In this document: one piece after another, positions 33,981-36,409 of the stretch
Layout of the letters: the number at the start of each line of letters is the position of its first letter
Position numbering within the stretch: position 1 is the first letter of the stretch
DNA from: Haloferax litoreum
Lineage (GTDB): Archaea; Halobacteriota; Halobacteria; Halobacteriales; Haloferacaceae
Reading direction: 5' to 3'
Assembly: GCF_009674605.1 (NCBI RefSeq)
Contig: NZ_WKJO01000001.1
Span: forward strand, 434,001 to 498,000
DNA: 64,000 nt
The notes under the pieces: model-generated
Databases searched by the model: none
What the model saw: only the letters and a program-made list of their open reading frames with translations
Told to the model about the DNA's origin: nothing
Translations under genes and position numbers: made by a program

Positions 33981-34021
33981 TCACTGCTCACGTTGTTCGC
34001 AGGAAAAGTCCGCTCTCCCCG
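33981..34021. repeat. Degenerate direct repeat, copy 2, overlapping the tRNA-Tyr 3' end
   Basis: The partner of the copy at 33828. The last 13 bases are part of the acceptor and T-arm of the tRNA gene on the minus strand. Comparison of the copies shows a one-base gap and a few substitutions. Confidence 0.45.
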
Positions 34022-34082
34022 ATTTGAACGGGGGACAAGCCGATCTACAGTCGGCTGCTCTGCCAGGCTGAGCTAAGAGCGG
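34009..34082 (-). tRNA. tRNA-Tyr (anticodon GUA)
   Basis: 74 bases on the minus strand. The acceptor stem CCGCTCT pairs with AGAGCGG and A is the discriminator base. The D arm (TAGCTCAGCCTGGCAGAGCA), the anticodon stem-loop with CTGTAGA (anticodon GTA) and the T arm (CCCCGTTCAAATCGGGG) are all normal. No intron and no encoded CCA are seen. GUA reads both tyrosine codons. Confidence 0.95.
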
Positions 34083-34196
34083 TCACTGATTTCTATCCGG
34101 TGGACGGTTTTAACGATTATCATTCGCCCGCCGCGCGTGTGCTGTCTGTCAGACGGAGGCGAACATTAATATGCCAACAACATGATTCCCGGATAG

Positions 34197-34805
34197 ATGA
34201 CGAAAATCACGTTCCGCGCCGACGATGCACTCGTCGAGCGTCTGGACGGCCTCGACACGTCGAAGAGCGAGGCCATGCGCGAGGCACTCCGTGAGTACCT
34301 CGACCAAGTGGAACGTGAGAACGAGTCTGCGGCCCACTCGGACACCGAAACGAAACACCCCGACGATGAAAGCGAACTCGATGCAGCGCTGGCGACGCGA
34401 GTCGAACGCCTCGTCGAAGCACAGTTGTCCGACCGTCTCCCAGAACTCGTCGAGGAGACGCTGGCTACCCAAACAGACGAACACACCCGGTCCGACGTAA
34501 ACGTCAACATCAACGTCGACGGGGCGAGTCCCGATTCGTCCGTAAACGCGGAGTACGGGCGGGAATCGACGCCGAATGGGGAACGTAAGACACCGAGTCA
34601 AATTGAAGAGGCAGAACCGTACGAGGCGGAATCAGCGTGCGGCCAGTGCGGCGAATCGGTGGACTCCTCACACGTATACTGCCCGAACTGCGGAGAGAAG
34701 ACCTCCCAACGAGTCTTCTGTGAGTGCGGTGACGAACTCCGCTCTGACTGGGCGTTTTGCCCAGATTGTGGCCGTCGGACACCTGCCGCCGACGTCCTCG
34801 AGTAG
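34197..34805 (+). CDS. cdrL: CdrL-type ribbon-helix-helix regulator with C-terminal zinc ribbons, 202 aa
   Basis: The N-terminal 45 residues are a ribbon-helix-helix DNA-binding fold (ITFRADDALVERLDGLDTSKSEAMREAL). A charged helical middle follows, then two zinc-ribbon units with paired cysteines (CGQCGE, CPNCGEK, CECGDE, CPDCGR) at about 148-193. It precedes cdrS and ftsZ2, where haloarchaea encode the long cell-division regulator CdrL. The likely targets are the repeated GTCTTAC sites just downstream, including its own operon neighbours. The symbol is given by location and architecture. Confidence 0.82.
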   Translation: MTKITFRADDALVERLDGLDTSKSEAMREALREYLDQVERENESAAHSDTETKHPDDESELDAALATRVERLVEAQLSDRLPELVEETLATQTDEHTRSDVNVNINVDGASPDSSVNAEYGRESTPNGERKTPSQIEEAEPYEAESACGQCGESVDSSHVYCPNCGEKTSQRVFCECGDELRSDWAFCPDCGRRTPAADVLE

Positions 34806-34849
34806 CATAACCACCGATTAATCGCCCGTATACGGGTGATTCAGCCCTC

Positions 34850-35007
34850 GTCTTACAATCGCCGTTACATTTATATCCTATCGCTTTGTGGTGACTATCG
34901 CGTAAGACGGTTGTCTTACAGCCACCCAACGGCGGCCCGTAACTCGGCGCAGTCCGTTGGTTTTGGGCCGTAAGACATTCGCACACAGGTGCGGCGCGCC
35001 GTCTTAC
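34850..35007 (+). promoter_or_regulatory. cdrS-ftsZ2 control region with five GTCTTAC/GTAAGAC sites
   Basis: Exact seven-base sites lie at 34850-34856 (GTCTTAC), 34902-34908 (GTAAGAC), 34913-34919 (GTCTTAC), 34970-34976 (GTAAGAC) and 35001-35007 (GTCTTAC). The second and third form a perfect palindrome GTAAGAC-GGTT-GTCTTAC. A TATA-like TTTATATCC near 34870-34878 places the palindrome at the probable transcription start, where a bound regulator would block or tune transcription. Ribbon-helix-helix proteins bind short palindromic half-sites as dimers, so CdrL or CdrS is the natural candidate. Confidence 0.75.
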
Positions 35008-35022
35008 CGGGGGAATGAAAAT

Positions 35023-35208
35023 ATGGAGCGTGTGACACTACGAATTCCGAAGCAGCAAATCGAGGAAGTCGAGCGAATGGTCGAGACGGGTGAATTCCCG
35101 AACCGATCTGAGGCCATTCGGTCCGCCGTCCGCGAGATGCTCAACGAACAGACGACCGACAAACGCCAGCGCGAATCGACCAGCAAGCGCGGCTGGGCGA
35201 AGGTGTAA
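35023..35208 (+). CDS. cdrS: CdrS short ribbon-helix-helix regulator, 61 aa
   Basis: A minimal RHH protein: the beta strand ([19 protein letters not shown]) and two helices ([19 protein letters not shown]) make up almost all of it, with a basic C-terminal tail. From published work on Haloferax and Halobacterium, CdrS is a global regulator of cell division that is co-transcribed with ftsZ2. Here only four bases separate its stop from the ftsZ2 ATG. The ATG at 35023 starts the strand; the frame opens further upstream but without coding content. Confidence 0.9.
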
Positions 35209-35212
35209 ACCG

Positions 35213-36409
35213 ATGCAAGATATCGTTCGCGAGGCGATGGAACGAGACGAGGCAGAGCGTAAGACGAAACTGGAAGACACCGGTGACGACCAGTTCGGCG
35301 ACCCTCGTATCGTGATTGTCGGCTGTGGTGGTGCTGGGAACAACACCATCAACCGACTGTACAACATCGGCGTCGAAGGTGCCGACACGGTGGCGATCAA
35401 CACCGACAAGCAGCACCTGAAGATGATCGAAGCAGACACGAAGATTCTCGTCGGAAAGTCCCTGACGCAGGGTCTCGGTGCTGGTGGCGACCCCTCGATG
35501 GGGGAGCGAGCAACCGAGATGGCACAGGGAACCGTCAAGGACGTCCTCGGCGACGCCGACCTGGTGTTCGTGACTGCGGGGATGGGCGGAGGTACCGGGA
35601 CCGGTGCAGCACCCGTCGTCTCCAAAATCGCAAAAGAGCAAGGCGCAATCGTCGTCGGCATGGTCTCGACACCGTTCAACGTCGAGCGTGCCCGGACGGT
35701 GAAGGCCGAAGAGGGACTCGAGAACCTCCGCAACGAGGCCGACTCCATCATCGTGCTGGACAACAACCGCCTCCTCGACTACGTCCCGAACCTGCCCATC
35801 GGCAAGGCGTTCTCGGTCATGGACCAGATTATCGCCGAGACCGTCAAGGGCATCTCGGAGACGATTACCCAACCGTCGCTCATCAACCTCGACTACGCCG
35901 ACATGTCGACCATCATGAACCAGGGCGGCGTCGCGGTGATGCTCGTCGGTGAGACACAGGACAAGAACAAGACCCAGGAAGTGGTCAACGACGCGATGAA
36001 CCACCCACTCTTGGACGTCGACTATCGGGGTGCATCCGGTGGTCTCGTCCACATCACGGGCGGTCCCGACCTCACACTCAAGGAGGCCGAGGGAATCGCG
36101 AGCAGCATCACCGAACGACTGGAAGCCGCCGCGAACGTCATCTGGGGCGCTCGCATTCAGGACGAGTACAAAGGGAAAGTCCGTGTCATGGCCATCATGA
36201 CCGGCGTCCAGTCGGCACAGGTCCTCGGCCCGACGACGCAGAAACAGGCCGACAAGTCGCGCCAGAGCATCGAGGGACACCAACAACAGCAACAACAGCG
36301 CTCGGAATTCGACAGTTCGCAGCGTGTCGAGACGCCGCAGAGCGGTACGTGGTCTGACGGTGGCCGAGACGAGTCCGAGAAGAACAACGGACTCGACGTT
36401 ATCCGGTAA
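35213..36409 (+). CDS. ftsZ2: Tubulin-like cell division GTPase FtsZ2, 398 aa
   Basis: FtsZ2 drives mid-cell constriction in haloarchaea, acting after FtsZ1 sets up the ring. The nucleotide site is clear: [13 protein letters not shown] and [13 protein letters not shown], with the T7 catalytic loop NLDYADMST. The C-terminal tail is Gln-rich (residues about 350-362) and ends NNGLDVIR, a likely peptide for binding partners. It is preceded at four bases by cdrS and is followed by the convergent ncsA. Confidence 0.95.

Follow-up and report, generated by a model that had tools for sequence, protein, structure and literature searches.

The cdrL-cdrS-ftsZ2 locus

The window, a stretch of 64,000 nucleotides, carries the genes cdrL, cdrS and ftsZ2 in this order, and Pfam confirms both the order and the ribbon-helix-helix (RHH) and zinc-ribbon domains at the locus. 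The genes, the promoter elements and the seven-base boxes discussed below are the following.

34148 to 34154, plus strand: CdrS-type box GTCAGAC in the cdrL promoter, directly 5′ of a TATA-like element
34197 to 34805, plus strand: cdrL, encoding an RHH domain, a middle region and a double zinc ribbon (Pfam RHH_1, CdrL_M, DZR)
34585 to 34591, minus strand: box 6, GTAAGAC, conserved within the cdrL coding region over Arg-Lys-Thr codons, where codon choice was compared
34850 to 34856, plus strand: box 1, GTCTTAC, exact, 13 bp 5′ of the TATA box
34870 to 34876, plus strand: predicted TATA box TTTATAT of the cdrS-ftsZ2 promoter, whose distance to the pair was followed across loci
34902 to 34908, minus strand: box 2, GTAAGAC, which forms the left arm of the pair and lies at the predicted transcription start
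34913 to 34919, plus strand: box 3, GTCTTAC, which forms the right arm and follows the gap GGTT
34920 to 34969, plus strand: hairpin-prone leader stretch between boxes 3 and 4, judged by its folding z over 91 genera
34970 to 34976, minus strand: box 4, GTAAGAC, a leader site that 100 of 170 loci have in exact form
35001 to 35007, plus strand: box 5, GTCTTAC, in the leader, directly 5′ of the presumed ribosome site GGGGGAATG
35023 to 35208, plus strand: cdrS, encoding a 61-residue RHH protein (Pfam RHH_1)
35213 to 36409, plus strand: ftsZ2 (Pfam Tubulin, FtsZ_C)

An earlier note on this DNA had described five exact GTCTTAC/GTAAGAC sites between cdrL and cdrS, two of which were said to form a perfect palindrome with a four-base gap at the predicted start of transcription. 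All five sites are present, spanning 158 bp from first to last base, and the palindrome is GTAAGAC-GGTT-GTCTTAC at 34902-34919, which begins 32 bp downstream of the first T of TTTATAT; the transcription start is itself a prediction from the TATA box. A seventh copy of the 7-mer, at 35259-35265 inside ftsZ2, is not conserved. It was rejected as a member of the array, only one of 29 other loci having a box in that stretch, and at another position. Directly 5′ of cdrL, on the minus strand, lies a tRNA-Tyr gene (34008-34082).

Over the whole 64 kb the two 7-mers are only mildly enriched, with nine copies against 5.4 expected, a number reached in 11 of 100 shuffles. The 250 bp before cdrS, on the other hand, hold five boxes, while shuffles average 0.03 and, in 5000 rounds, never give more than 2, which excludes chance clustering. 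The significance of the array is thus in its clustering and not in the window-wide count of the 7-mer. A scan for GTAAGAC-N4-GTCTTAC, which had been proposed together with the original observation, finds the exact pair once in the 3.56-Mb genome to which the window belongs. When up to two mismatches are allowed, this genome has 14 sites against two for the reversed pattern, and the other near-matches are mostly within genes or in a context that is not clear. A window-specific repeat or a mobile element can also be set aside, since the array is orthologous, with one pair per genome.

Conservation of the boxes in Halobacteriales

The exact pair with a four-base gap occurs in 306 of 392 Halobacteriales genomes, where a control pattern is found in one, and the pair GTAAGAC-N2..6-GTCTTAC occurs in 373 of 392, against seven of 392 for the reversed-pattern control. 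Among near-complete genomes of this order, 340 of 345 have the pair with a gap of 2-6 bp. It is present in one copy per genome, the exception being G390, which has two. The five near-complete genomes without it are G019, G023, G048, G119 and G285. The first four lack the pair yet have three or four exact boxes 5′ of cdrS, while no match to cdrS was found in G285 at the threshold used.

Conservation upstream of cdrS, on which the earlier note had made its reading of the sites depend, extends to all 170 cdrS loci that were read, from 96 genera: each has at least one box, and the mean within 250 bp of cdrS is 4.3 boxes per locus. This set is deliberately rich in genomes without the exact N4 pair, and its rates for that pair are biased low (the 392-genome scans are an even draw). 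The exact pair with a gap of 2-6 bp is found in 160 of the 170 loci, with a gap of 4 bp in 104, 5 bp in 44, 2 bp in seven, 6 bp in three and 3 bp in two. Box 5, the start-proximal box, is found in 157 of the 170 loci and box 4 is exact in 100. The position of box 1 is shared by all 15 Haloferax loci; in other families it is shifted or flipped. With one representative per genus (96 genera), GTAAGAC is the commonest 7-mer: it is found 401 times, where shuffles average 4.3 and never exceed 12. Selection on the boxes is thus extreme, and the letters between them drift from locus to locus. Among the best 80 of 284 relatives, the pair has a gap of 4 or 5 bp in 78 of 80 loci, and in the family of the window box 5 and the CGGGGGAAT that follows it do not change in any of the 29 loci aligned. 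On one chromosome of Haloferacaceae archaeon XH8 there are two cdrS loci that match equally well (L236 and L243).

Geometry of the pair

Of the 150 loci where both the TATA box and the pair are recognised, 112 have a distance of 32 bp between the first bases of the two elements and 34 have one of 33 bp. A gap of 4 bp, as in 104 of the 170 loci, places the centres of the two arms 11 bp apart, which is about one helical turn; short inverted or tandem boxes about one helical turn apart, a trait of RHH operators, are therefore what is found here. The earlier note regarded the pair as the kind of palindrome to which RHH dimers bind. Its letters are indeed palindromic, but a single-palindrome site is not what the comparison of loci suggests. 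Lineages differ in the gap, which can be anything from 2 to 6 bp, and boxes that stand alone are also conserved, whichever way they point; the pair is therefore better read as two boxes, each of which would accommodate a single dimer. From the predicted start the cdrS mRNA would be at least about 310 nt long, whereas the one reported for H. volcanii is shorter, at about 250 nt.

The box inside cdrL

Box 6 lies 317 bp 5′ of the pair, over the Arg-Lys-Thr of the cdrL linker (CGT-AAG-ACR). The RKT tripeptide is present in the linker in 79 of 150 cdrL loci, with CGT as the Arg codon in 82 of 82 cases and ACA or ACG as the Thr codon, again in 82 of 82. Elsewhere in cdrL the Thr codon is ACC or ACT in 619 of 1714 cases, and at the linker RKT it never is. 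A looser count gives CGT for the linker Arg in 96 of 96 cases, in 81 of 150 loci. At two control positions CGT encodes Arg in 16 of 150 (TFR) and 13 of 144 (MRxALR) cases; the first Arg of CGRRT in cdrL likewise favours CGT, and the preference for CGT alone is not unique. Because CGT is used in 82 of 82 cases and the Thr codon is never ACC or ACT, the codon choice at box 6 points to selection on the DNA. These counts leave out 20 of the 170 loci that have no CdrL protein by a text rule, some of which do have CdrL.

CdrS-type boxes and their proposed ancestry

In Haloferax volcanii, ChIP places CdrS at 18 sites (Liao et al. 2021, PMC8406309), and the targets include ftsZ1 and dacZ; in the available text, the cdrS promoter is absent from this list and none of the genes listed is identifiable as cdrL. 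Upstream of ftsZ1, 22 of the 28 genomes compared have a palindrome of the type GTCNGAC-N4-GTCNGAC (up to two mismatches to the scanned pattern), placed at -63 to -68. Counted to the tenth base of this palindrome, a start 50 nt downstream would be about 8 nt before the ATG, and the position of the palindrome is consistent with that given for the CdrS motif in the accessible part of PMC8406309. The dacZ promoters of five Haloferax have one arm of the box only, at a fitting distance; of the 14 dacZ loci in all, two others have pairs at one or two mismatches, three have nothing close and in four the start codon was not located. Because of these boxes in the ftsZ1 and dacZ promoters we infer that GTCNGAC is the CdrS box, the match to the published logo being one of position rather than of letters. 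Besides ftsZ1, the only exact GTCNGAC-N4-GTCNGAC pairs in the genome of the window are at G000:C1:661777 and G000:C1:989586 (L212 and L213), one in the gap between divergent open frames and one at the 3′ end of an open frame. Both are candidate CdrS targets.

Boxes of this second type are also a feature of cdrL promoters, in which 66 copies of GTCNGAC, spread over 51 of 82 genera, stand against an expectation of 5.1; 14 of 15 Haloferax have such a box. Since GTCNGAC is found 65 times in the window, which is below expectation, a single box such as that at 34148 is not significant by itself. Taken across genera, the boxes lead to the prediction that CdrS controls cdrL. At two loci of family f9 (L131 and L164) a second gene lies directly before cdrL, and that of L131 encodes an RHH-like protein (MGRINVRVDEDLL...).

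The boxes of cdrS-ftsZ2 in the window are of the GTAAGAC and not of the GTCNGAC type. Among haloarchaea, GTCNGAC within 130 bp of cdrS is a feature of one family, f7, where 32 of 37 loci have it, against five of 133 others. The picture is different in the non-haloarchaeal set, which consists of 20 of 57 non-Halobacteriales genomes of the same phylum that gave a match (L308-L327), all with ftsZ downstream. The 150 bp before cdrS contain 40 copies of GTCNGAC at these loci against 0.5 expected, with all 20 loci represented, and only one GTAAGAC/GTCTTAC. With up to one mismatch, the distances between boxes are 11, 22, 33, 44 or 55 bp in 97 cases, and any other distance up to 60 bp is found at most twice. 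These relatives are referred to here as methanogen-type because PMC7439475, as far as its available text goes, reports synteny in Methanomicrobia and the absence of CdrL outside Halobacteria. Their GTCNGAC lattice is most simply read as a site of putative CdrS autoregulation.

CdrL and the genomes that lack it

One of the genomes without the pair, G119, is taken as Halobacterium salinarum, since its bacteriorhodopsin is identical over 248 residues to that of this species. Its cdrS locus (L158), which has cdrL upstream, carries GTAAGAC at -178 and -54, GTGAGAC-GGTC-GTCTTAC at the predicted start and GTCTTAC at -25. In CdrL-FLAG ChIP-seq of H. salinarum, the region 5′ of cdrS-ftsZ2 is described as the only reproducible site genome-wide (Darnell et al. 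2020, PMC7439475, available text). The single CdrL peak and the single copy of the pair agree well.

A CdrL profile search gave no match in 15 of the 32 genomes searched, five of these 15 being incomplete. Ten near-complete genomes from six genera have no detectable CdrL (G030, G053, G061, G069, G094, G082, G093, G153, G264 and G407), and all ten keep the pair, so CdrL is not its only reader. In two of the six genera, other species do have CdrL. All Halobacteria are reported to encode CdrL, and the ten genomes look like exceptions to this rule. Four of the loci without CdrL (L114, L121, L124 and, in part, L129) have translated tRNA-like stretches 5′ of cdrS.

The claim of the earlier note that the array is the operator by which CdrL and/or CdrS set ftsZ2 levels is therefore upheld in one part only. 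A regulatory site of cdrS-ftsZ2 is what both the 170 of 170 loci and the CdrL ChIP in the available text of PMC7439475 indicate. CdrL as the sole reader is rejected on the ten genomes just named, and a role of CdrS at this promoter in H. volcanii finds no backing in the 18 ChIP sites of PMC8406309, from which, in the text available, its own promoter is absent.

Proposed circuit

Our main reading, to which we give a probability of about 0.7, is that the array is a predicted ancient CdrS-type autoregulatory operator of cdrS-ftsZ2, bound by RHH dimers and re-lettered in haloarchaea, with CdrL as its main reader where present and with a feedback loop. RHH proteins touch DNA via alternate residues of their first strand, and the first strands are near-invariant, RVTLR in CdrS and KITFR in CdrL. 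Each 7-mer has the outer symmetry GT...AC, and each 7-bp box would seat one RHH dimer. The pair, with its arm centres 11 bp apart at a gap of 4 bp, would seat two dimers on one face of the DNA. One dimer per box would explain why isolated boxes occur in either orientation and why the gap of the pair is elastic. As an operator, the array is well supported by its conservation together with the published CdrL ChIP. The likeliest reader is CdrL in the species that have it, with CdrS as a second or ancestral reader.

Since CdrL would occupy the pair at the start site, it would most likely block initiation and so lower cdrS-ftsZ2. The sign of its action is not given by the CdrL deletion strain of H. 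salinarum, because this strain carried second-site mutations (PMC7439475, available text). The box site would be older than the arrangement with CdrL, and its ancestral form would be GTCNGAC on an 11-bp lattice. Haloarchaea would then have re-lettered the boxes of cdrS-ftsZ2 to GTAAGAC while keeping GTCNGAC at ftsZ1 and at the cdrL promoter. CdrS would switch on ftsZ1 and cdrL, and CdrL would hold back cdrS-ftsZ2, a role that CdrS itself may have in the lineages that lost CdrL. Such a loop would balance FtsZ1 and FtsZ2. The CdrS ChIP of H. volcanii (PMC8406309), in its available text, argues against the loop, having neither the cdrS promoter nor an identifiable cdrL, and it also argues against CdrS reading GTAAGAC in that species; competition with CdrL or the limits of ChIP may be the reason that the cdrS promoter is missing from the list. 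In H. salinarum, ftsZ2 is reported to be 1.3- to 2.2-fold lower without CdrS (PMC7439475, text available), which looks like activation, direct or not, and the drop in the cdrS deletion may be indirect.

A more detailed version is put forward tentatively, as less likely than not. Ancestral CdrS would have regulated itself through the GTCNGAC lattice, at least as long ago as the split between haloarchaea and the methanogen-type relatives. In haloarchaea this would have divided into two codes. Through the first, GTCNGAC, CdrS would recognise ftsZ1 and also cdrL, a newcomer at that time; the second, GTAAGAC, would be recognised by CdrL and confined to a single operon, giving a negative feedback that fixes the ratio of FtsZ1 to FtsZ2. 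The second code would reach into cdrL, would survive the repeated loss of CdrL since CdrS can read it, and would be coupled to a structured leader.

Alternative readers and the leader RNA

If CdrL alone read the array and CdrS had no direct part, it would be easy to understand why there is one CdrL ChIP peak and one pair per genome, why the CdrS ChIP of H. volcanii, in the text available, misses the cdrS promoter and why the array boxes differ from the CdrS-type box. This is nevertheless unlikely in view of the ten near-complete genomes of six genera that keep the pair without detectable CdrL, and of the non-haloarchaeal loci, where CdrL is reported to be absent, that have a related array. The persistence of CdrS and boxes together where CdrL is lost and the ancestry of the array outside haloarchaea would, like the published fall of ftsZ2 without CdrS, fit an array that is a CdrS autoregulatory operator throughout, CdrL occupancy being indirect, for example through CdrS. 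The same H. volcanii ChIP, in which the cdrS promoter does not figure as far as the text goes, and the lettering of the array boxes, which is unlike that of the ftsZ1 boxes in the same genomes, make this arrangement improbable as well, and slightly the less probable of the two. A third conserved DNA-binding protein would be compatible with boxes that persist without CdrL at a site that the CdrS ChIP misses. We know of no such factor, and the CdrL ChIP of the available text binds exactly at the array region, so that a third protein is very unlikely to be the reader.

The boxes might also act in the mRNA leader as a regulatory RNA structure, with box 2 pairing with box 5 (or 3) and box 4 with box 3 (or 5). 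The leader in the window does fold in this way, with a z of -2.0, and the leaders of 91 genera have a mean z of -4.0, a value that is inflated by the complementary boxes. In addition, hairpins are favoured even in the segment from box 3 to box 4 taken alone: its mean folding z over 91 genera is -1.75, with 40% below -2, while five control segments from the same loci have means of -0.10 to -0.56, with 4-11% below -2. Against this, box 1 is 5′ of the TATA box and box 6 is in cdrL, so neither is in the leader. Box 5 is kept in 157 of 170 loci while its fellow box 4 is exact only in 100, and a pair gap of 2-3 nt, found in some lineages, is too short for a normal loop. Because the whole-box pairs hardly vary, covariation cannot speak for them, and a search of Rfam over 34000-35300 gave the neighbouring tRNA as the sole match, the leader having no family match. 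A purely RNA reading of the boxes is rejected on box placement, the retention of boxes 4 and 5, the short gaps and Rfam, and it is the least credible of the readings considered here. The leader hairpin may be something separate from the box array, possibly an attenuator or a stability element. It forms in most genera even though its sequence drifts among them, and in aligned Haloferax it is followed by GGTYTT. RNAalifold on two alignments gives a double change in two of 17 and seven of 25 predicted pairs; broken cells are numerous in the inner hairpin, and there is little alignable covariation.

Relation to known systems

The CdrL-bound region of H. salinarum (PMC7439475, available text) is at the same place in the same operon, and the locus carries the boxes. 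The words "motif" and "palindrom" do not occur in the text available of PMC7439475, which likewise neither spells out the bases bound nor mentions the array and how it is conserved, the box inside cdrL or the genomes without CdrL. The array offers a direct mechanism for the CdrL ChIP peak described in that text. The CdrS motif from ChIP in H. volcanii (PMC8406309, available text) is a symmetric RHH motif near promoters, and the GTCNGAC-N4-GTCNGAC of ftsZ1 fits its reported position. The array differs from it in that the cdrS promoter is not among the 18 sites of that text and the cdrS boxes read GTAAGAC, the identity of the published motif with GTCNGAC being presumed. A description of the boxes was not found in the literature searched, among the matches listed and within a scope of main texts, nor was a CdrS-CdrL feedback loop found in the literature searched.

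For the question of how archaea set the amount and ratio of FtsZ, the array supplies the exact bases of a probable operator with one site per genome. Species with and without CdrL, together with the non-haloarchaeal relatives, form a natural test set. An ancient regulatory code that was re-lettered in one operon as a second regulator joined would be a clean case of co-evolution between a regulator and its site.

The RHH operators of Arc, MetJ, CopG and NikR consist of short boxes in inverted or tandem arrays, on which dimers bind side by side. In contrast to these, the array at cdrS-ftsZ2 has an elastic gap of 2-6 bp, is found in one copy per genome and has a box in the neighbouring gene. The proteins differ as well, since CdrS has no metal domain and CdrL has a double zinc ribbon. 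NikR and antitoxin chains are matched by sequence, and the alignment of CdrS to E. coli NikR begins at residue 1.
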